DNA of 20,432 nucleotides from the IMG/VR virus record IMGVR_UViG_3300017763_000277, positions 1 to 20,432 of that record. One strand, written 5' to 3'. The position numbers were made by a program, and so were the translations under genes. This DNA is from a virus. Below are positions 6,914-20,432 of the stretch, piece by piece (within the stretch, counting starts at the first letter, position 1; each line of letters starts with the position of its first letter). The notes under the pieces are model-generated. The model made no database searches and was not told the origin of the DNA. It worked only from the letters and a program-made list of their open reading frames with translations.

Positions 6914-7828
6914 ATGGAAAAGAATTTTTATAAAATATACAAACCAACAACAGGATTAACACATAATGTACCTGTATACTTAGTCTCTGAAGCAGATGAG
7001 ATGGGTGGTATGGTTGGTTTTGATGGTGATATTGAACAAGTCGAACAGATCTGTAATTTCAATTACCAAATAACAGGTAATAGTACGGTAAAACTTTATA
7101 ATACAGTTAATAGAGATATTTTGAAGGTAATCAAAAGTGAAACATACACAATTGATTGGGGAGATGGTGGTACCGAAGCCATAACAGTGAGTTCAGGAAC
7201 TGACTTAACTTTTAAACAACACACATACGCAACTGCGGGAACTTATGAGGCAACCCTCACATTAGATACAAATTTTACTAAAAAAAGAATTAAGAAAAAA
7301 ATAACAGTACCACAAAATACTACCGTCACAGATCAATTTGGTAGTTTTTCAACTACAATGGTTTACGAAGGTGTGTCTACAGTAACTCAGAATTATATTA
7401 ACGAATATGATAATACTAATGTTACAGGTGATACACAAATATATTTTGCCGCTATGGGTAGGAGTAGAGTAAGTGAATTAAAAAAATATGGCGAGAATAC
7501 ATATCAAGGATTGACTACAGGATCTGATAGTGTTGGTAGTTATAGTGGATATACAATAGACAATTTATCATACAGAGATTATGATGATGGAACCACAACA
7601 ATAACGGGTTCTACAACTAATTTTCAAAAAGAAGAAGTGTTTAATAAAATGTTAACTAGGAACGAACATTTTATTGGATTTATAGATGAACCGACCATTT
7701 ATTCGGACATTTTCGTCGAAAGAGGGAAGCAAGGAGTTTTAGAAATGAATTTAAGGTTAGGTGAAATAGATAATATCGGAGAACTATCTGTTTATGGAAA
7801 CGGATTTTTTGAAGTTAAAAAACAATAA
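6914..7828 (+). CDS. Putative tail/baseplate protein with PKD-like domain (304 aa)
   Basis: Residues about 47-132 look like a PKD-type Ig-like beta-sandwich. They carry the hallmark DWGDG at 81-85, then HTY at 103-105 and AGTYEATLTL at 108-117, closing with a basic strand KKRIKKKITVP. PKD domains are common in extracellular and host-surface proteins and in phage appendages, where they serve in adhesion or as spacers. The N-terminal 45 residues (KPTTGLTHNVPVYLVSEADE) and the C-terminal half (GEIDNIGELSVYGNGFFEVK at the end) are not recognised. The C-terminal ending resembles subunits that fold onto a partner with a final beta-strand, but that is inference. There is no signal peptide, which fits a virion protein assembled in the cytoplasm. 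The gene sits three bases after the preceding stop, and a 28-base AT-rich gap follows. Confidence 0.55.
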   Translation: MEKNFYKIYKPTTGLTHNVPVYLVSEADEMGGMVGFDGDIEQVEQICNFNYQITGNSTVKLYNTVNRDILKVIKSETYTIDWGDGGTEAITVSSGTDLTFKQHTYATAGTYEATLTLDTNFTKKRIKKKITVPQNTTVTDQFGSFSTTMVYEGVSTVTQNYINEYDNTNVTGDTQIYFAAMGRSRVSELKKYGENTYQGLTTGSDSVGSYSGYTIDNLSYRDYDDGTTTITGSTTNFQKEEVFNKMLTRNEHFIGFIDEPTIYSDIFVERGKQGVLEMNLRLGEIDNIGELSVYGNGFFEVKKQ

Positions 7829-7856: not shown

Positions 7857-8774
7857 ATGGCAGTAGGTAGTTATGGAACGGTTAGACCCGCAGATGTGTC
7901 CCCGTCAGACATAGAAATATTATTTCACTATGTTTCTGGTAGGACCTCAACGTCTCCCGTCCAATTCAAAAAATTAAATTCAGAGGACGTATTAACCCCT
8001 ATTTACCATGGTGATAGAAACGATACTCTTGAGACTGGTGTCTCTACAAGTGAACTTATCGGTGGACTTTATAACTTAAAATTGGAATCATCCGATTTTG
8101 ATGAATTAGGGGTGTACACATTACACATCAGACCGAAACAAATTAGAACATCAATCACCGATTGTGGAATACTAGCATCATTACCATCGGTAAGAGGAAT
8201 AATTATTGATTTAAGTAACGTACCATCTGAAGATAGAAATAAATTCACCCCACAAGGATTAGTGGGATATAGAATTGAGTATCTTAATAATGACGGTACT
8301 AAACTTCCTAACTTCTATAGGGTAGTTACCTCATCCTTTTTCTGTAACCCAATAACATCTAATTTGACTAATTCAAGTCAAAAGGCAATCAGGTATCAAT
8401 ATACTGATCAGTCAACAAATTTGTTATTTTTAACAGTTACTCCTTCATCGGCACCATCGAACAGACCAAATACGATTCCGTTCATTGGTGAACCATCACA
8501 AAACATTGTATTATCAAATACCTTTTTCAATCCAACAACTATTGAAGTTGATATGGTTGAACATGACGACACTACTTTGGCATACGCATTATACGGTAAC
8601 CAATCTAAATCAGTGTCTGATGGTATATACACGATCTACGATGGAAGTAACAATATTTACAAACAATTTAACTTGTTTGAGATCAAAGATGAGTTCAATG
8701 AAACACTATTTGAAGTTAGAGAAGAAAGGGACGAAATCGATGAAACTAAAAACTTTGATGATATCACTCAATAA
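7857..8774 (+). CDS. Putative tail/baseplate structural protein (305 aa), function unknown
   Basis: The protein begins [20 protein letters not shown] and has an N-terminal half rich in beta-strand-like segments ([37 protein letters not shown]). A Ser/Pro/Asn-rich middle follows ([15 protein letters not shown]), and the last 50 residues are highly charged and acidic ([20 protein letters not shown]), probably helical or disordered. There is no signal peptide or membrane segment. Its stop overlaps the next start (TAATG, 8772-8776), so it is likely co-translated with the 2697-aa fibre protein. That pairing makes a baseplate adaptor, fibre-attachment protein or fibre partner plausible, but nothing in the sequence proves it. 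Confidence 0.52.
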
Positions 8775-11700
8775 TGGCGAAAAGAAAAGTTCCAAGTCAA
8801 GCGGCTAGTGGAAGGGAAACCTTTAATGATAACTTAGTCGGTAAACAGATTACCGACGGGTCAAGCCAACTTACTGCGACTAACTTTTCTGTAGAAAAAA
8901 CATTACCACAAAGAGACACTAAAAAGTTTAAGACTAATCCCTTTTCAGAATACTTAACACTTGATGATTTAAAAGAAGAGGTTGATGCACCAAAAACAAC
9001 TTCGGGTGGGTCTTCTAAAAGTAATGACGTTAAGTTCAATTCATCAAAAGATAACGGTAGTAAATCATTATACGGATCACTAAAAGAAAGAATATCCGTA
9101 TCAATTGGTAGAATAATTAAAAAATTCCCTGCAGGGTTTTACATTGATAAAGATACCCCAATATCGGCATCTCAATATACTGCAGAGAATATAGTATATA
9201 ACAATAAAACATACGAAACGACATTTAAGTTTGAGAATTCTAAAATTTTCAACCCATTAGATGTTAAAATTGTAAAACCTAAAAGTAATACTCAACCTGA
9301 AGTAGAAAATAAGTTTAAAAACTTTTTCGAATTCTTTAACAAGTATACTTTAGATATTCAAGGTAAAACATATGATGTTGTAAGTTTTACTGAGGTTGAT
9401 AGTGATGGTCTGATTACTTTAAAAGTGAAAGGAAAACCATTTACTACATCAACCTATGATGAAAGTTTTCTAATTAGACCCATTGATTCGGTAGTTGAGG
9501 AGTTTTTCCAAAACTTAGATGATTTAGAGTCAGTATTATTAAACCGAGAGTCGACACCTAAGTACACATCAAAATTCGTTGTTCCACAAGATTCTTTAGA
9601 TGGTAGTAAAACCGAAAACAAAACGTTGAGGTTTCCATGGCCAATCTTTAAAGATGGTTGGAACATTAAAATCACAGGTAACGCTTATGTGGATTACATA
9701 AGAAAACTAAGTGATGTTGGTCAAGAAATAGACAACTATAAATCAAATTTAATTGTTAGATTTTTAACTACTGCCTCTCTCAATGAATTTGACACACCTG
9801 ATCAAAGGATCGCGTCTATTTTTAAACTATACGGACAGAGTTTTGATTCTATCAAAAAATTTATTGATAACGTCGCTCACATGAGAAATGTAAGTTATGA
9901 TGGTATTAATAACGTTCCTGATGTACTTCTTAAAAATTTATCAAACACACTTGGATTAAGTGATGTTAAACTTTTTGATGATAAATCTTTAGAGGACATC
10001 CTTTATTCAAGAATTGATAGTCAGTACGAAGGTGTTGGTCTTGGTAAAAACGTAGTTGAAGCAGAAATAGAATTCTACAGAAGAGTATTAGTAAATCTCG
10101 CACACATCTATAAATCCAAAGGTACAAGAAATGCAATTGAATTCTTTTTAAGATTCTTAGGTGCACCCGAACCTTTAATTAAGATTGATGAGTATGTTTA
10201 CGAATATGATACTGTAAAAAAGACAACGTCTGATATTGATAGTGATATATATGATCTTATTCAGGACGAAAAGACATTTAGTATTGCTGAATTAGAAACT
10301 ACTGGTTTTGCATATAAAAATGTAATTACAACAGGTGTTACAAATTACGGAGAGACTGAGTTTCCAATCGAGGTACAAAGTAGTGGTAGTACCACATATG
10401 GTGATGTACAACAAATTATAAGTGAAAAGAACGATGTCTTTTTTGAAAAAGGTGCGGGTTGGTATGATATTACATTAGAACATAGATCTTCTTTAGAATT
10501 AGATAATGAAAATTCAGATCTACAATCATCACCTAAAGTAATAAAGACAAAAAATAAAGATTATACTTGGGGTGAAGATTACTTTGATTTATATAGACAG
10601 TTTGATGGTTTAGATTATGGTTATGAATTACATAATAAAGTTGATAACGATAAAACAGAACTTTTAGGTGATATAGATTCACAAACACTAAACAGAAAAA
10701 ACATACAAGTTTATATTTCTTCTGCACAAGCACTTGACCACGATGTTTATAGAAAATCAAGAGAGTTACAAGTAAGTTTTGGTACTAACACTTTAGAACC
10801 ACAAACAGGTTTTACTTTCGCGGAATACATTGACCAAGTTTTAAACGAACAAATAAGAAATTCTCATACTGTAAAATACCAAAAGAGTTATATACAGTTA
10901 GAGGACATCTACACAAGTTACTTAGAAAAAGTACCTAACCCATATAGTAACCCAACTGTAAGTGAATTTATTAATAAAATAAGTCCTTATTGGGTACAAT
11001 TAATTGAACAGTTCATTCCTGCAACAACATTATGGACGGGTGGTAATATCATCGAAAATCATAATTTAGGTAGATCAAAATACCAATATAAGAAACCGTG
11101 TAGAATTACTGAGTTTACAGAAAACCTTTTCCCTGATTTTGAATTGGCAATTGAAGAAGATTTAGAGACAGTTTTAGGTGATCCTGATGTATTCAGAGGT
11201 CTGACTGTGGTTAGTGGGGTAACATATTCATTACATATTGATTTTAATGGAACAACGTATAGTGCAAATAACCTATTGAGTTTAAGTGGTGAGACACAAA
11301 ATATTCAGACGGTAGATGTTTGTAGTGGTAACTACACACACGCGGGTTTATTTGACCCATACCCTGTAAATTCTGAATGTTCAACATTACTGAGTTCAGA
11401 TTTTGATGGAGTACCATTTAATAAAACAATTCATTTACCACTAACATGTGATTTTAAATGTCATTTGAAACCACAAAGAGAGATACTAGAATGTCTTTGG
11501 ATTGATGAAGTACAAAATATCATAGATAACCAAATTAATAACCAATATTATAGAAAAACATTTTATAGTGATGGAACATATGGTGGAGATATTAGCAATC
11601 ATGCGGGTTGGGTTGATTACCAATTAAGTGGGAACACACAAACAGAGACAAACTATTTAAGTGAATTACAAACAAATGGTGAATCCTATTCTTGTGAAGT

Positions 11701-14700
11701 AACACCAATATTAACATATAAAATATTTACGGATGTCGATGGGATTAAAAAGATAAGTGTAATCCCAATTAAATATGATGTTCCATTATATACGGACAAT
11801 ACATGTACAACTGAAGCTAACATTGAATGTTTAGATGGTGACACATTTGACTTTTATTTTGATACGTCTTATTTAACAGGTACAACATGTTGTAACCCAC
11901 AAGTAAATGTTTATGGTCCTGATACTATGTACACTTTACCTGAAGACGAAGACAACTGTTGTTTGGTAGAAGACGTATTTTTCGAGGTTTCGGGAATAAC
12001 ATTTGGTAATGAAGATATTATTGATGATGGTGACGCATGTACTGATTGTCCTCCATATAATACTACTTGGCCGACCAATATCTTTATAAATTGTGTTGGT
12101 GGGTATAACGAATCCATTTCAGGAAACACTACTCTTCAAAGTGACCAAACAGTAGAATGGGTATCAGGATGTACTTTTGTAGTAAGAAATGTAAGAGAAT
12201 ACGATGTTATTGATATTACAATAACCGATGCTGCAAACTGTGATCAAAAAGTAAGAATAGACGGACTACAACAAAAATTTGAGTGGGACCCCGTAGATGG
12301 TGATGATGTAACAACATCGAGAAGTCACTTCTTCCAATACCAAATTGACAGTTATTTGGAGGGGGAGGAATATCCAACACATGATCCCGCGAATATTATT
12401 AGTGGGATAACGTTCTGTGATAATTTTTCGGGATACACAATACATCCTACTGTTCAGTATAGACAAACATTTGATTATGGTTTAAAACAAAATACTAAAG
12501 TAATCAAAGTCAATAATGGTATTATCATAGATGATGAGAATACATGGGTTGATGTACAAAATTACTTTGCAGATAATACCTTAGAGTTAATCGACGTTGA
12601 GGATGTAACCATAGGTGATAGGTTACTATCAGGACAATATTTAGACTGTCCATTTAGTTCAAGTGATTTTACAAATTCGGTATTAAGTGGGTATTCATTT
12701 AGTTATACTTACTTGACTGTTGAGGTAGATAATAAAGATTGTTTAGGGTCTACTAAAGTTAACGTAATTAACGACAGATTTAAGGTTTTACCTAACTCTA
12801 AATTAAGAGTGATGACTAAGGTTGGTGACCATTGGGAGTTTACCGAAAAATATCCTGAGGAGTTAACAGTTAGACCACCTGATCCCGTAGAACCATGTTG
12901 TAATTATGGAGTGGATTATTATAGTAAAGGTGATTTACTAATAAATGAATTAGGGTTTCCTATTGAGGTTACTTCCTTAGATTTAGATTATTGTCAAAGA
13001 GATTTATTTTATCATTTAAATGTTACTGCAGTCTTTAATGCTCCAAGTACAGTTACAAATGGAATACCAAATGATGTAACAAACATATCTACAGATTGTT
13101 GTACCGACGTAATCTTATTTAATGGTGACGGAGATGATCAAGTATTGGTTGAATATAATGAACAATTATTCGAAAATTTAGACTTAAGTTCCCAACAATA
13201 CTATCAAGATCAAATAGATTGTGTGGATGCACCCGAAGTCGAAGATTTAAAAAGACCAATCTACGAAACTGAATGTAAAGATCTAAATGCCTTCATAGGT
13301 GAACACTACACCGACGGAGATGAACTTTTTATTTTATATGATAATTCCTACAGTATAGGTGAAATAGTACAACTTGAACCGATACAAGGTCAACAATCAG
13401 GTGAGTACTTATCACCTGGTAAAGACTGTTATGAAATAAAGTCAGTAACATATTCAGAACAAATAACTCATAGTATATTAGGTATATGTACAGATACGAT
13501 AACACCTACTGCTACCGCAGAACCTACAGCAACACCTGCACCAACACCAACTTTAACTGGTACTGAGACTCCATTACCAACAGAGACTCCTAACCCCACA
13601 CCAAGTACCACACCAAATGCAAGTCCTAACCCCACACCTTTACCAACATTAACTGGTACACCAGAACCAACAGCGACAGTTACACCTAATCCTACTGCGA
13701 GTAGTACTCCTGACCCTACACCTAACCCAACTTCCACACCTAACCCAACTTCTACACCTGTCCCTACACCAACAGAGACTCCTGTCCCTACAGCATCATC
13801 AACACCTGATCCCACTGCTTCACCAACACCAACACCTGGATCAACTAAAGCTCCCGACCCATCAGCAAGTCCTAGTCCAACTCCAAGTCCAACACCAAAT
13901 TGTGACTTTGATGTGGATGTAGATATTGCTGGACCAACTTCCACACCTGATCCTACATCATCACCAACACCTGATCCTACAACAACACCTGTACCAACAC
14001 CATCACCCAGCCCATCACCAAGTCCAAGTGTAACACCTAATTGTGATTTTGATGTAGATATTGAGATTGCCGCACCAACTCCAACACCTTCTCCATCTCC
14101 ATCTCCAAGTGCAACACCAAACTGTGATTTCGATATTGATGTGGATATTGCCACACCAACACCCACTCCAAGCCCAAGCCCAAGTCCATCACCAACTCCT
14201 ACACCATCTCCATCACCAAGTGTAACACCAAATTGTGACTTCGATGTTGATGTAGATATTGCAACTCCAACTCCTACACCTTCACCTAACCCATCTCCGT
14301 CGCCAACACAGACAGGATTACCAACTCCTACACCATCACCATCGCCATCACCGAGCCCATCACCGTCACCAAACTGTGATTTTGATGTGGATGTGGATAT
14401 TGCAACTCCAACACCAACACCCTCAATAACGGCTTTACCAACTGAGACTCCACAACCAACTTCGAGTCAAACTCCTTCACCAACACAGACAGGATTACCA
14501 ACACCAACACCAAGTCCGAGCCCATCACCTAGCCCATCACCCTCACCATCGGTAACACCAAACTGTGATTTCGATATTGATGTAGATATTGCTACACCAA
14601 CTCCTACACCAAGTCCGAGTCCTTCACCTAGTCCTTCACCAAGTGTAACACCTAATTGTGATTTCGACGTAGACATAGATATTGCCGCACCAACTCCAAC

Positions 14701-16867
14701 TCCAACACCGAGTCCGTCTCCAAGTGTAACACCAAATGCTACACCTAACCCTTCTGCATCACCTACACCTTCACCAAGCCCTTCAGCGACACCAAACTGT
14801 GATTTCGATATTGATGTAGATATAGCAACACCAACTCCTACACCATCTCCATCACCTAGTCCTAGCCCATCACCATCACCTTCTCCGTCGCCAACACAGA
14901 CAGGATTACCAACACCAACACCATCACCTAGCCCATCACCAAGCCCAAGTCCTTCATCAACACCAAATTGTGACTTTGATGTGGATGTGGACATTGCAAC
15001 ACCGACTCCAACACCGAGTATTTCACCAAGTCCTACATTTAGTGCAACACCCGCACCAACACCTGAAGCAACAGTTACACCACCTTCAACACAAAACCCA
15101 ACTCCTACACCATCACCTTCTCCGTCGCCAAGCCCAAGCCCATCAGCGACACCTAATTGTGATTTCGACGTAGACATAGATATTGCCACACCAACACCAA
15201 CACCGAGTCCTTCACCGTCTCCAACATCATCACCTAGTCCGACTCCAAGTCCAAGCCCATCTCCTTCACCAAGTCCGTCGCCAAGTCCAAGTCCTTCACC
15301 GAGCCCTTCACCATCGGTAACACCAAACTGTGATTTCGATATTGATGTAGATATTGCTACACCAACACCTACACCTGATCCAACATCATCACCAACACCA
15401 AGTCCAAGTCCATCACCAAGTGTAACACCAAATGCTACACCTAACCCATCACCAAGCCCAAGTCCATCACCAAGTCCAAGTGTAACACCAAATGCTACGC
15501 CTAACCCTACATCATCACCAACACCAAGCCCAAGTCCATCACCAAGTGTAACACCAAACTGTGATTTCGATATTGATGTGGACATTGCGACTCCAACACC
15601 AACACCAAGTCCGAGTCCTTCACCATCACCTAGTCCATCACCGAGTGTGACTCCACAACCAACACCTAACCCTACATCATCACCAACACCAAGTCCGAGC
15701 CCATCGCCATCACCAAGTGTAACACCTAATTGTGATTTTGATGTTGATGTAGATATTGCGACTCCAACTCCTACACCATCTCCATCACCTAGTCCATCAC
15801 CGAGCCCTTCACCTACACCAAGTGATACTCCAAGACCGACTGAGACACCTGATCCCACTGCTTCACCAACACCAAGTATAACACCAAATGCTACGGCTTC
15901 ACCAACACCAAGTCCAACTCCAACACCTAGCCCATCACCATCACCATCTCCGTCACCTTCTCCAAGTGTAACACCTAATTGTGATTTTGATGTTGATGTA
16001 GATATTGCGACTCCAACACCAACACCTAGCCCATCACCATCACCTAGCCCATCTCCGAGTCCTTCACCTACTCCGAGTTTAACACCTGACCCAACAGCAA
16101 GTCCAACTCCATCTCCGAGTCCTTCTCCGAGTCCGAGTAGTTCTCCAACGCCTACGCCAAGTCCATCACCAAGTCCAAGCCCATCTCCTTCACCAAGTCC
16201 TACACCAAACTGTGATTTTGATGTGGACGTAGATATTGCTACACCAACACCAACACCAAGTCCGAGCCCATCGCCATCACCAAGTACAACACCAAGACCA
16301 ACTGAGACTCCAACACCAACACCGAGTCCTTCACCGTCTCCGAGTCCAAGCCCAAGTCCGAGTCCATCTCCGACACCAAGCCCAACTCCGAGTCCAACGG
16401 CAGTAGATTGTCCACCAGATTGTGGTACACAAATCTATAAGAACTCTTATGTACCAACAGGTAGTACACCTAATGTAAGTTCAATAAAAGATTTAGGTGG
16501 GTACTGTAATGAAACCCGTGAAGGTGACATAGTTAGATCAACTGACGGAAAAGAATGGGTTTACAATATAGATGATTGTGTTGTTTATTATAGAACATAT
16601 TCAGGTGGTGTTGGTAGTTCATGTATTGGTGAACATGTTATACCTGTAGGAACTGAGGTAAGTTCATTTGATCATACTGAAGGTACTTTAACACCAATAG
16701 GAACTAATAGACTGTTTGATACAGGAATAAGATATATCGATACAGATAACAAAGCAATTGCAATTATTGTTGAATGGAATAACGTGTTAACTCAAGTAGA
16801 AAGAGTGTGGATACTATGTGACTGTAGTTTTGAAGGTGAGGTAACTGAAAATTTTGAAGAAGGATAA
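8774..16867 (+). CDS. Giant baseplate-anchored fibre protein: gpI-like segment plus Pro-rich repeat stalk (2697 aa)
   Basis: Residues 1-100 are Ser/Lys/Thr-rich and probably flexible. Residues about 320-475 resemble P2 gpI / Tail_P2_I-type baseplate proteins: a helical run [20 protein letters not shown], then [20 protein letters not shown] and [20 protein letters not shown]. Residues about 738-776 ([19 protein letters not shown], then YQYKKPC) look like the end of that baseplate module. Residues about 777-1576 form a long beta-rich region with several Cys pairs (CC at two places, [14 protein letters not shown]), probably a chain of small domains. Residues 1577-2543 are the Pro-Ser/Pro-Thr stalk with 15 NCDFD motifs. 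Residues 2544-2697 are a separate C-terminal domain with six or more Cys (DCPPDCG at its start, [11 protein letters not shown] near the end). There is no signal peptide. The start overlaps the previous stop (TAATG). I infer a wedge/baseplate anchor joined to a long extended fibre. The fusion of these parts in one chain is the striking point. Confidence 0.65.
13502..16402 (+). repeat. Pro-Ser/Pro-Thr stalk with 15 interspersed [11 protein letters not shown] motifs (coding repeat)
   Basis: About 2.9 kb encode alternating Pro and Ser/Thr (also Asn, Asp, Glu, Ala), interrupted by an 11-residue acidic motif with consensus N-C-D-F-D-[VI]-D-[VI]-[DE]-I-A. The motif starts at 13898, 14039, 14120, 14231, 14372, 14561, 14654, 14795, 14966, 15155, 15326, 15557, 15728, 15977 and 16208. 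Each is usually preceded by (S/A/V)TP and followed by [10 protein letters not shown]. Secondary modules also recur: [10 protein letters not shown] at 14303, 14480 and 14891, and [10 protein letters not shown] at 14723, 15419 and 15479. The + strand is C/A-rich and G-poor, unlike the flanks. The dipeptide codons vary freely (cca/cct/ccg with agt/agc/tca/tct), so the array is a protein repeat rather than a simple DNA microsatellite. The protein would be an extended polyproline-like rod with one Cys and one acidic strand per node. Confidence 0.93.
15419..15544 (+). repeat. Tandem duplicated sub-unit (60 and 66 bp) inside the stalk
   Basis: Two adjacent units both begin with a near-identical 29-base segment encoding [10 protein letters not shown], at 15419 and 15479, with one base different (ACA versus ACG). 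The first unit is 60 bp and the second 66 bp. The next unit begins with the same AGTGTAACACCAAA but continues into an NCDFD motif at 15557. The two lengths differ by exactly one Pro-X dipeptide (6 bp). This looks like a fairly recent segmental duplication. Confidence 0.75.
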
Positions 16868-16904: not shown

Positions 16905-19900
16905 ATGGCTCAAGTAAGATATTTTGATGTAAGAATAAGTTCGGGAACTTCCCATAGTACATATATTATATACTATGACCAAATTAATGCATCTAATATT
17001 GCGACAAGAGTATCAACTAATTTACCCGCAACAAATGTAACATATTCTGATCTTATTAGAGAAAATGGTGTAAGAGTTGAAGTACCATATAGTGCAACAA
17101 CTATATTACTATACAATAACTCATGTGTAATAGATGATGAGATTATTTTACCAACACCAATCCCAACTTCTACACCAACACCAACACCAAGTCCTAGTCC
17201 ATCTCCGAGCCCGAGTCCATCTCCGTCTCCGAGCCCAAGTCCTAGCCCATCACCATCTCCTTCACCATCACCGAGTCCAACACCTAATTGTGACTTTGAT
17301 GTTGATGTAGATATTGCTACACCAACTCCTACACCATCACCATCACCAAGTCCATCACCGTCTCCTTCACCATCACCTAGCCCATCACCAAGTGCAACAC
17401 CTAATCCTACACCTAATCCTACACCTAATCCTACTGCATCACCAACTCCAACACCATCACCATCACCTAGCCCATCACCAAGTCCAAGCCCGACAAATAC
17501 ACCAAGCCCAACTCCTACACCATCTCCATCACCTAGTCCTAGTCCAACTCCAAGTCCAACACCAAATTGTGATTTTGATGTGGATATTGATATAAACAGG
17601 GCACCTACAGGTTTTACACCTACACTATTAACTCAATCTGAAAATACGGCAACATCAACAACTATTGCCACATTAGTCGCGGGAGATCCTGATTCGGGTG
17701 ATTCACACACATTTAGTTTAGTGAGTGGTATAGGAAGTACTGATAACGCATCATTTACATTATCAAGTGCGGGAGTACTCAAAAATGCAATTGTATTCAA
17801 TTATGAAACTAAATCAAGTTATTCTATAAGAATAAGAGTCACTGACCAAGATGGATTAACTTTTGAGGACACAAGGACCGTAAGTGTTCTTAATATAAAT
17901 GAAACACCTTATGGTCTTACATTAAGTAATAATACACAAAATGAAAATACTGCAATAGGTACGACTATAGGTACTTTTTCAGGTTTAGATGTAGATAGTG
18001 GTGAAACATTCACATATGCACTTACAGGTACTGTTAATGACAATACATCATTTAGTTTATCAAGTGCAGGGGTACTTGAAAACGCAATTGTTTTTAACTA
18101 TGAGGTTAAAAACTCTTACAGTATTGAAGTAACAGTTACTGATAGTGGTAATAATACATATACTGACACATTTACAATTTCAGTACTTGATGTTAATGAA
18201 ACACCCACTAATCTCACTTTATCAAATTCGTCAATCGATGAAAATGTGGCATCAGGAACCGCAATAGGTACATTTAGTTCTCAAGATCCTGATACTAATA
18301 ATACGTTTACATATACTTTAGTAAGTGGTACGGGAGACACAGGAAATAGTAGTTTTGATATTGATGGTACAACACTAAAGAGTGATGAAGTATTTGATTA
18401 TGAAACACAGTCAAGTTATTCTATAAGAGTTAGGTCAACTGACCAAGGAGGTCTGTACTTTGAAAAAAAATTGACAATATCAATAACAAATATATCTGTT
18501 TCAGGTACTGCTAGTGTGACACACTTACTTTGTTACAATGATTCCACAGGTAGTATTACAGTTAATTCTCAAACAGGAGGTGATTCACCTTACACTTATT
18601 CTATAAATGGTACCAATTATCAAACGTCCACTTCATTTACAGGTTTGGCCGCGGGTAATTATACAATTTATGTCAAAGATAGTAATGGTGAGGTTGGAAC
18701 ATTTACATTAGGAATATTACAACCACCCGTACTCAATATAACTGATTCACATACAGATCCAACATGTTATGGTGGGAGTGATGGTGAAATCCAATTTAGT
18801 GTTGTTGGTGGTACAGGTGAAATAACATATACTTTAAATGGTGATGTAACAACAGATTTACTTCATGAAAATTTGACTGCGGGTTCTTATACTCTAATTG
18901 CAACGGATGAAAATGGATGTACTGATACTAGAACGGTTACTCTAAGTGTAACACAAGTATCCGCAACAGTAACACAATCAAATATAACATGTAACGGTAA
19001 TGATAATGGTTGGATTAATGTAACCTCACCATCAGGAGGATCGGGAGCCACATACCAAGTCAAAATGACACGTGATGACGGAACATTACTACATAATTGG
19101 AGTAACCTAACAACTTATGTGTTATACGAAAGTCTTGATCCTGATACATACATAGTATATCTTAAGGACTCATCTTCATGTGAAAGAACCTACAATATAA
19201 CAATTACAGAACCACAACCCGTAACATTCACAGAAACACATGTTGACCCAACATGTTGGAATGGTAATGACGGTAGTATCACTGTTTCCGCCTCAGGAGG
19301 TAACGGATCTTATGAATATCAGTTTGATGGTTTTTGGTACACATCAAACGTAAAAACAAATTTAACTGGAGGTAGTCATAGTGTAAGAGTAAGAGACGGT
19401 AATGGATGTGTTTCAAGTTTTGGGTATGTTAATTTATCTACCACATCACCATCTGCAACTATTACAACTACAAATGTGGTGTGTAATGGTGATGATAACG
19501 GATCAATATCAGTTTCTAACCCAACAGGTGGGTCGGGAGCCACATATCAAGTTAAAATTAACACAACTAACAACTCTTCAGATGGAACTTATGTTAACCT
19601 AACAGGTACTAAACTGTATGAGGATTTAGCACCAGATACTTATTATATCTATATTAAAGATAGTGATGGTTGTGAAAGAGTTCAGAATAAAACAATTACT
19701 GAAAACAATACGGTTACCGCTAGTGCATCATCAACGAACCCAAGTTGTTACGATGATACTGATGGTACTATAACAGTTACGGGTAGTGGTGGTACAGGAT
19801 CGTATACCTATAAAATAGGTAGTGGATCTTACCAAACCTCAAATACTTTCACAAGTTTAGGAAATGGAACCTATACAGTCTATGTTAAAGACGGTAATGG

Positions 19901-20432
19901 ATGTGTTGATTCAACTTCAGTGACTTTATCCAAAACTCAGGTCTCCGCAACAGTAACACAATCTAATGTTACATGTAATAAGGGAACAAACGGATCTATC
20001 ACAGTATCATCACCAACAGGTGGAAATGGAGGGACTTATAGTGTAAAACTAAACAGTGGTTCTTACACAACGACGTTCCCTAAGACATACTCAAGTTTGG
20101 CTGCGGGGGTTAACACCATAACAGTAAAAGATGGTGATGGTTGTACAAGATCATATAGTATTACTATTACACAACCAACAGCGGTTAATGTAACTTCAAG
20201 TTCTGTTACACATCCAACGTGTAATTACAGTAGTGATGGTAGTATAACAGTGGGAGCTACGGGAGGTACGGGTACTAAACAATATTCTATTAATGGTACT
20301 CAATATTTTTCTTCAGGAACATTCACATCATTGAGTGTTGGTTCTTATACATTATATGCGAAAGATGAAAGTAACTGTGTTGATACAGTATCAGTGACAT
20401 TAAGTAAATCACAGGATACTGCAACAATAAGT
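16905..20432 (+). CDS. Fibre/adhesin protein: Pro-rich stalk, cadherin-like and SprB-type repeats (3' end beyond window)
   Basis: From the ATG at 16905 the frame stays open for 1176 codons to the last base of the window, so the C-terminus is missing. Residues 1-82 form a small N-terminal domain ([20 protein letters not shown] to [10 protein letters not shown]), perhaps the attachment domain. Residues 83-230 are the same Pro-Ser/Pro-Thr stalk as in the upstream gene, with NCDFD motifs at 17286 and 17565. Residues 231 to about 531 are three cadherin-like domains of about 100 aa, and residues from about 535 are at least eight SprB-type repeats. There is no N-terminal signal peptide. That argues against a T9SS-secreted host adhesin, although the T9SS C-terminal signal could only be checked beyond the window. 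The upstream baseplate genes support a tail fibre or receptor-binding role. An alternative is an adhesive decoration protein of the virion. Confidence 0.72.
17151..17594 (+). repeat. Second, shorter Pro-Ser/Pro-Thr stalk with two NCDFD motifs
   Basis: Residues 83-230 of the second fibre protein repeat the composition and motif of the upstream stalk. The motif copies are [11 protein letters not shown] at 17286-17318 and [10 protein letters not shown] at 17565-17594. The second copy is the only one not followed by a Pro-rich segment: it runs straight into the first cadherin-like domain (NRAPTG). Motif, flanking [10 protein letters not shown] and codon choices match copies in the upstream gene closely enough that duplication or exchange between the two genes is likely. 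Confidence 0.92.
17397..17432 (+). repeat. Perfect 12-bp tandem repeat, three copies (TPNP)
   Basis: ACACCTAATCCT is repeated exactly three times and encodes (TPNP)3. In the stalks, most equivalent dipeptides use mixed synonymous codons, so perfect DNA identity here points to recent slippage or a local duplication. The unit keeps both the reading frame and the two-residue Pro register. Confidence 0.85.
17595..18497 (+). repeat. Three tandem cadherin-like domains (coding)
   Basis: Domains start at 17595 (NRAPTGF), 17898 (NETPYGL) and 18195 (NETPTNL), giving periods of 303 and 297 bases. Each has the pattern N-x-x-P-x-x-L, then S/N-x-x-x-x-E-N-x-A-x-x-T, D-x-D-x-G/N-x-x-F-T-[FY], a SF-x-[LI]-x-x-x-x-L segment, F-[ND]-Y-E, SYSI-x-[VI] and a terminal T-[IV]-[ST]-[VI]. 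Acidic residues at the ends (for example DVNE) and E-N near the start are where cadherin-type domains bind Ca2+ between neighbours. In bacterial surface proteins these domains build long, stiff stalks and mediate adhesion. Calcium binding is inferred from the family. Confidence 0.85.
18498..20432 (+). repeat. At least eight SprB-type repeats, alternating in two classes (coding, continues past window)
   Basis: The repeats carry C-x-[NGD]-x-[DN]-G-x-I-x-[VF], then GG-x-x-x-Y-x-[VYF], a G-[ST]-[YH]-x-[VIL]-x-[VA]-x-D-x-[ND]-G-C-type ending and T-[IVL]-x-[IL]. This is the pattern of SprB repeats known from the Flavobacterium gliding adhesin. Repeat-initial Cys codons lie at 18531, 18765, 18990, 19254, 19482, 19746, 19974 and 20220. 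Most repeats hold a second Cys near the end (NGC, SSC, DGC), so one intra-repeat disulfide is possible. Spans alternate: 75-76 aa for the even repeats and 82-88 aa for repeats 3, 5 and 7. The last residues before the edge ([11 protein letters not shown]) match the linker before repeat 7 ([11 protein letters not shown]), so a ninth repeat begins at the border. Confidence 0.85.

Follow-up and report, generated by a model that had tools for sequence, protein, structure and literature searches.

The question raised by this locus is what sets the distances between the repeated elements of a proline-rich viral protein. The stretch in question, positions 1 to 20,432 of IMG/VR virus record IMGVR_UViG_3300017763_000277 (all 20,432 nucleotides, called the window below), contains an open reading frame (ORF) at 8774–16867(+) with 15 copies of the 11-residue motif NCDFD[VI]D[VI][DE]IA. 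These copies, termed nodes, are separated by spacers made of Xaa-Pro dipeptides. An earlier note had pointed out that every spacer has an even number of codons, and offered two causes, either changes of the DNA in 6-bp steps or a polyproline register that selection keeps unbroken. The spacer lengths are not only even but also quantized, with a helical period that partly predicts the lengths found in unseen lineages. There is about an even chance that the array is the tail-fiber-like stalk of a T4-like phage. Rigid rods of the polyproline type would then keep its amphipathic beta nodes in rotational register with one another.

Even spacing and the proline register

A motif recount in the ORF confirmed the 14 distances between successive node starts, every one of which is 3 modulo 6, leaving an even number of codons in all spacers (Table 1). 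The pair of nodes in the next ORF (17286–17318 and 17565–17597) also conforms, being an odd number of codons (93) apart, and its 82-residue spacer fits the same length lattice. The phase of the prolines is kept across the words TQTGL, SITAL and PTSS, as had been claimed, with Pro substituted in place and no shift. Of the 241 Pro-Pro distances inside the window spacers, two are odd (1 and 5, in ..VTPPSTQNP.., spacer 14999–15154) and cancel each other out; the remaining 239 are even. An unbroken register through the array, on the other hand, was not borne out: because the node has 11 residues, the Pro phase switches at each node (0/1/0/1), and relatives hold odd spacers. The even-length rule applies spacer by spacer, not through the whole array.

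The naive coin-flip chance of 14 even spacers is 2^-14 = 6e-5, a misleading figure because the spacers are related copies made of, and bounded by, Xaa-Pro dipeptides. They begin with TP or similar directly after a node and mostly end on Pro before the next one, and a distance of 2 makes up 1678 of about 2155 Pro-Pro distances, as expected of dense, extended Xaa-Pro repeats. Parity alone is a modest finding; even length largely restates a composition of whole dipeptides.

Spacers in related viruses

Relatives were collected with a degenerate DNA node pattern (22 IMG/VR stretches) and by a search with the N-terminal domain (27 loci), giving 178 distinct spacers after removal of duplicates. These arrays were assembled from metagenomes, which leaves their repeats prone to error, and many contigs stop inside arrays. 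The node motif was not found in GTDB species genomes. The earlier note had proposed node spacing in diverged relatives as a check, and here 166 of the 178 distinct spacers are even, while the 12 odd lengths (7%) are confined to a few lineages. The parity rule is strong, not absolute.

Many nodes have identical DNA, and in L017/L073 the first two nodes are fused, with zero spacer. In spacers of the TP lineage (L020, L040 and others), positions with a missing Pro recur every 8 residues, at 2.7 times expectation at 4 dipeptides, a recurrence unrelated to spacer lengths.

Quantized lengths and helical period

The window lineage uses lengths of 16, 26, 36, 46, 52, 66, 72 and 82 residues (and 20 and 32), and a second lineage mainly 12, 18, 28, 34, 40, 50 and 56. 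Differences between distinct lengths within an array favor 6 (52 pairs), 10 (49), 16 (40) and 20 (24) residues, whereas 2 (10 pairs), 8 (9), 14 (12) and 18 (8) are rare. A periodogram of spacer lengths was calculated for each lineage, with coherence given as R. The SPa lineage, which includes the window, peaked at 0.304 turn/residue (R = 0.89), SPb at 0.303 (R = 0.87), GVDT at 0.302 (R = 0.67), TP at 0.315 (R = 0.77) and TATP at 0.318 (R = 0.88). Three lineages, with nodes ending in IA, show 3.30 residues/turn, and two lineages with VV, LV or II endings show 3.15–3.17. In the window lineage, all 25 distinct spacers (25/25) lie within 68 degrees of a single phase. The ideal period of 3.0 fits poorly (R at 0.333 is 0.26–0.51).

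Most of the odd spacers are 3 residues, or about one turn, longer than an even class. Lengths 21 and 31 (18+3 and 28+3, with PP or a similar slip) recur in separate lineages; they are in phase at 3.17 residues/turn and opposed to an alias period of 5.4 residues, which even lengths alone do not exclude and which the odd spacers disfavor. The odd spacer of 29 residues is out of phase. Since interior non-Pro words are weakly phased in the four larger lineages (R 0.11–0.29), phasing is mainly a node-to-node property.

Chance was assessed in three ways. Under a strict null, where a whole length class was moved together by random even amounts and the peak frequency was free over a wide range, p was 0.0105 for SPa, 0.039 for SPb, 0.16 for GVDT, 0.025 for TP and 0.12 for TATP. 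A neutral simulation, with array growth by duplication and even-step indels, matched the window coherence in ≤0.1% of runs (p ≤ 0.001), with values of 0–0.083 for seven other arrays. Hold-out lineages were taken from scans with other node patterns, and frequency and phase were fixed beforehand. L091/L094 (p = 0.003) and L087/L085/L089 (p = 0.014) fitted, and L082 leaned towards the preset phase (p = 0.11).

Spacers also become longer towards the C-terminus in all arrays that have enough nodes (Spearman 0.65–0.96; 0.79 in the window, p = 0.0005), and the hold-out arrays, judged by eye, show the same rise. Unit age is an unlikely cause, because node divergence does not follow the gradient: adjacent nodes do not become more diverged along the array (rho −0.46 to +0.46, mostly negative), and an age gradient, with older units being longer for having had more time to grow, was rejected. 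Such a gradient would be expected of a stalk whose joints are dense close to the virion and sparser towards the tip, but this is a guess.

Changes at the DNA level

The DNA of the window spacers matches itself at 0.53–0.58 at lags of 6n bases, versus 0.33–0.35 where the lag is an odd multiple of 3. At 6n the match is about equal to a synonymous-codon-shuffle null (the lag-6 value, 0.53, is at or below it), and the Xaa-Pro coding pattern itself gives this self-match, so that mispairing in 6-base steps would be favored. No sign of recent hexamer slippage was seen in the window spacers, their self-match not exceeding the codon-shuffle null, and Tandem Repeats Finder reported no 6-bp tandem array within 13898–16240; active hexamer slippage was rejected for want of excess DNA self-similarity. 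Orthologous spacers of close relatives, called at a 92% identity cut-off, have the same length in 58 of 64 pairs, and all six differences are even (2, 2, 4, 6, 10 and 16 residues). DNA and protein self-similarity at 6 or 10 residues is no higher than at 4, 8 or 12; the TP lineage has its higher values at 8 and 12, neither of them a favored length step.

Of the two causes first offered, 6-base steps are enough to account for parity, while the unbroken register is not kept. Selection on spacer length does appear, though of a different kind, namely the 6- and 10-residue quantization that fits whole helical turns. The 6-bp steps alone do not predict this quantization. The interpretation given in the earlier note is partly supported.

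A proposed model and its alternatives

The array may form the stalk of a long, probably multi-chain, tail-fiber-like adhesin. Each node would be an amphipathic beta strand, with Cys, Phe, Val, Val and Ile on one face and Asp on the other, and each spacer a stiff, left-handed rod of the polyproline type, built from Xaa-Pro dipeptides. Length would obey two rules. Spacers would contain whole Xaa-Pro dipeptides, and so an even number of residues, with gain and loss of DNA by mispairing favored at multiples of 6 bases; and the lengths kept would approximate whole turns, at 3.30 residues/turn in the window lineage and 3.15–3.17 in the VV/II-type lineages. With whole turns, the hydrophobic face of each node would return to the same direction and chains could meet at every node. 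A period above 3.0 could come from supercoiling of the rods, as in collagen chains, whose helix has 10/3 residues per turn.

Parity could also be the only rule. The spacers would then be neutral, flexible Xaa-Pro linkers in which mispaired CCN-NNN hexamers add or remove 6n bases, and their apparently preferred lengths would be a few ancestral cassettes spread by recombination through near-identical nodes. The self-match at 6n lags, the even orthologous changes (6/6), the many equal orthologous pairs (which imply inherited lengths), the numerous DNA-identical nodes and the use of 14, 18 and 22 residues in L090 all suit this explanation. It does not readily produce the observed coherence, which the shared-ancestry neutral simulation seldom reached, and several lineages share a period that partly predicts unseen ones. 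Nor is self-similarity raised at the favored steps of 6 or 10 residues, and the internal repeat of the TP lineage (8 residues) is a step not favored among lengths. We regard this account as possible but rather unlikely. The selection for an unbroken two-residue register put forward in the earlier note is improbable: the near-uniform Pro-Pro distances of the window speak for it, and the two odd ones cancel, but the 11-residue node flips the phase 15 times, about 1/6 of Pro-phase positions are not Pro, and the odd spacers tolerated in relatives are mostly on the helical phase.

Quantization might instead be mutational, with replication or recombination adding or removing blocks of 18 and 30 bases. 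A clean 30-base difference between orthologues (L013/L073) and a net 18-base difference (L018/L050) are what this would produce, but the DNA has no preference for self-similarity at 18 or 30 bases, and the lengths allowed for two node types interleave without being the same. Duplication of 18/30-base blocks was rejected for lack of a template preference, and mutational quantization is very improbable.

Several points weigh against whole-turn spacers in a fiber stalk. The period was noticed post hoc, with the hold-out lineages as the main guard, and in that comparison the lattice for each lineage was one of two, chosen according to node type. One hold-out lineage, L090, did not fit (p = 0.30) and has steps of 4. 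With length classes treated as units, single-lineage p values are modest and those of GVDT and TATP are not significant; the lineages are related, and their length classes may be inherited. Two frequencies are required, neither being the polyproline II ideal of 3.0, and FPTP (6 spacers) does not fit a helical period. Lengths of 22, 30 and 44 occur off the lattice, as do the orthologous changes of 2 and 4 residues, and the interior kinks of TATP (13 words) also show phasing (R 0.67). The library searches turned up no homologue of known function, and AlphaFold2 monomer models of the N-terminus and the tip had pLDDT (predicted local distance difference test) values of 38.6 and 50.9, both too weak to use.

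The nodes of L090 are similar to those of the other arrays (DCSFDVDVNII), and its spacers have 14, 18, 22 and 36 residues.

Protein identity and genomic setting

The first ~800 aa of the array protein are the most conserved part (68–87% identity to most relatives, 53–54% to L075/L076), and the N-terminal region is the probable virion-attachment part. Searches of Pfam, NCBIfam and cultured phages gave no match to it; hits in PHROGs were weak and uninformative, and Foldseek on its model returned noise only. The array protein had no significant match among PDB sequences. The C-terminal tip is exchanged between lineages, with differing tips in L067/L073, L069/L070 and L082. In L067, L073 and L082 the tip has a DxSGS motif, resembling a metal ion-dependent adhesion site, in place of the Cys-rich tip of the window. 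A von Willebrand A domain, suggested by DxSGS in some tips, was not confirmed by Pfam.

Contigs of relatives reach 176 kb, and a T4-type Gp23 capsid was found in one of them (176 kb, E = 3.7e-65) and a tail sheath in 3 of 4 long relative contigs; the window fragment itself has neither gene. Given the T4-type relatives, the conserved N-terminus and the swapped C-terminal tip, the protein may well be a tail-fiber-like adhesin. The next ORF (16905–20432) matched cadherin (3e-21) and SprB repeats (2e-51), which is adhesin content of a Bacteroidota type within a phage, and the array protein gave no SprB repeats outside its repetitive parts. By capsid, the nearest cultured relatives include Flavobacterium phage immuto, in which the tested (TP)n pattern was not found. 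The adhesin domains of the next gene and the Flavobacterium phage among the nearest capsids make a Bacteroidota host likely.

An upstream ORF (6914–7828) has a weak PKD-domain match (E 0.0035), another adhesin-like part. The minus strand has long open frames at 13468–14166 and 14467–15858 (232 and 463 aa, rich in Gly and Val), which the Xaa-Pro coding pattern probably creates as a side effect.

Table 1. Layout of the array gene and the following ORF (positions in the window).
Feature	Position	Strand	Length (aa)	Remarks	Basis
Whole gene	8774–16867	+	2697	N-terminal domain, Xaa-Pro lead-in, 15-node array, C-terminal tip	ORF list
N-terminal region	8774–13501	+	1576		sequence comparison with relatives
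Xaa-Pro lead-in	13505–13897	+		node-free, all Pro in a single phase	
Node 1	13898–13930	+			motif match
Spacer 1	13931–14038	+	36	phase deviation +9 degrees	
Node 2	14039–14071	+			motif match
Spacer 2	14072–14119	+	16	phase deviation −13 degrees	
Node 3	14120–14152	+			motif match
Spacer 3	14153–14230	+	26	phase deviation −2 degrees	
Node 4	14231–14263	+			motif match
Spacer 4	14264–14371	+	36	with TQTGL	
Node 5	14372–14404	+			motif match
Spacer 5	14405–14560	+	52	with SITAL, PTSS and TQTGL; phase deviation −46 degrees	
Node 6	14561–14593	+			motif match
Spacer 6	14594–14653	+	20	phase deviation +63 degrees, poorest fit	
Node 7	14654–14686	+			motif match
Spacer 7	14687–14794	+	36		
Node 8	14795–14827	+			motif match
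Spacer 8	14828–14965	+	46	phase deviation +19 degrees	
Node 9	14966–14998	+			motif match
Spacer 9	14999–15154	+	52	sole local register slip (TPPSTQNP), self-cancelling	
Node 10	15155–15187	+			motif match
Spacer 10	15188–15325	+	46		
Node 11	15326–15358	+			motif match
Spacer 11	15359–15556	+	66	phase deviation +41 degrees	
Node 12	15557–15589	+			motif match
Spacer 12	15590–15727	+	46		
Node 13	15728–15760	+			motif match
Spacer 13	15761–15976	+	72	phase deviation −24 degrees	
Node 14	15977–16009	+			motif match
Spacer 14	16010–16207	+	66	phase deviation +41 degrees	
Node 15	16208–16240	+			motif match
C-terminal tip domain	16391–16864	+	158	Cys-rich, probably all-beta; unrelated tips take its place in some relatives	low-confidence model
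Next ORF	16905–20432	+		runs off the window; 2 nodes, then cadherin and SprB repeats	

Comparison with known systems and significance

No paper on these repeats was found in the literature library searched. As in phage long tail fibers of the T4 gp34/gp37 type, a long repetitive rod lies between a conserved N-terminus and an exchangeable tip, and the relatives belong to a phage group with a Gp23-type capsid and a contractile sheath; unlike in those fibers, the stalk consists of Xaa-Pro rods and 11-residue nodes, with no sequence match to known fibers. Collagen-like phage fibers also have a Pro-rich stalk, and the 3.3-residue period is near the collagen value, but the array lacks Gly-X-Y triplets (its spacers are almost Gly-free) and is punctuated by beta nodes. 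Simple-sequence contingency loci likewise vary the length of a repeat tract in fixed DNA steps, whereas here the tract is imperfect, synonymous codons are scrambled, the frame is kept and there is no phase variation. In synaptotagmin, the orientation of domains depends on polyproline linkers and varies with a period of three (PMC4804166), and in both the engineered linkers of that study and TonB-type Xaa-Pro rods the length of a Pro-rich rod sets the rotation between modules. The present array differs from such polyproline II rods in being natural, with 14 spacers in one protein that alternate Xaa-Pro instead of being poly-Pro, and in having a period of 3.17–3.30, not 3.0.

Whether selection has fitted dozens of spacer lengths in this natural protein family to whole polyproline-type turns, with a pitch that depends on node type and a gradient of length, is in our judgement evenly balanced. 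If true, the whole-turn spacers would be to proteins what helically phased sites are to DNA. They would also provide a natural Xaa-Pro ruler, whose sequence alone reports the pitch in a working assembly (3.17 and 3.30 residues/turn), a quantity that is otherwise hard to measure for mixed Xaa-Pro chains. For uncultured T4-like phages, the array would represent a fiber-stalk design undescribed in the family libraries checked.

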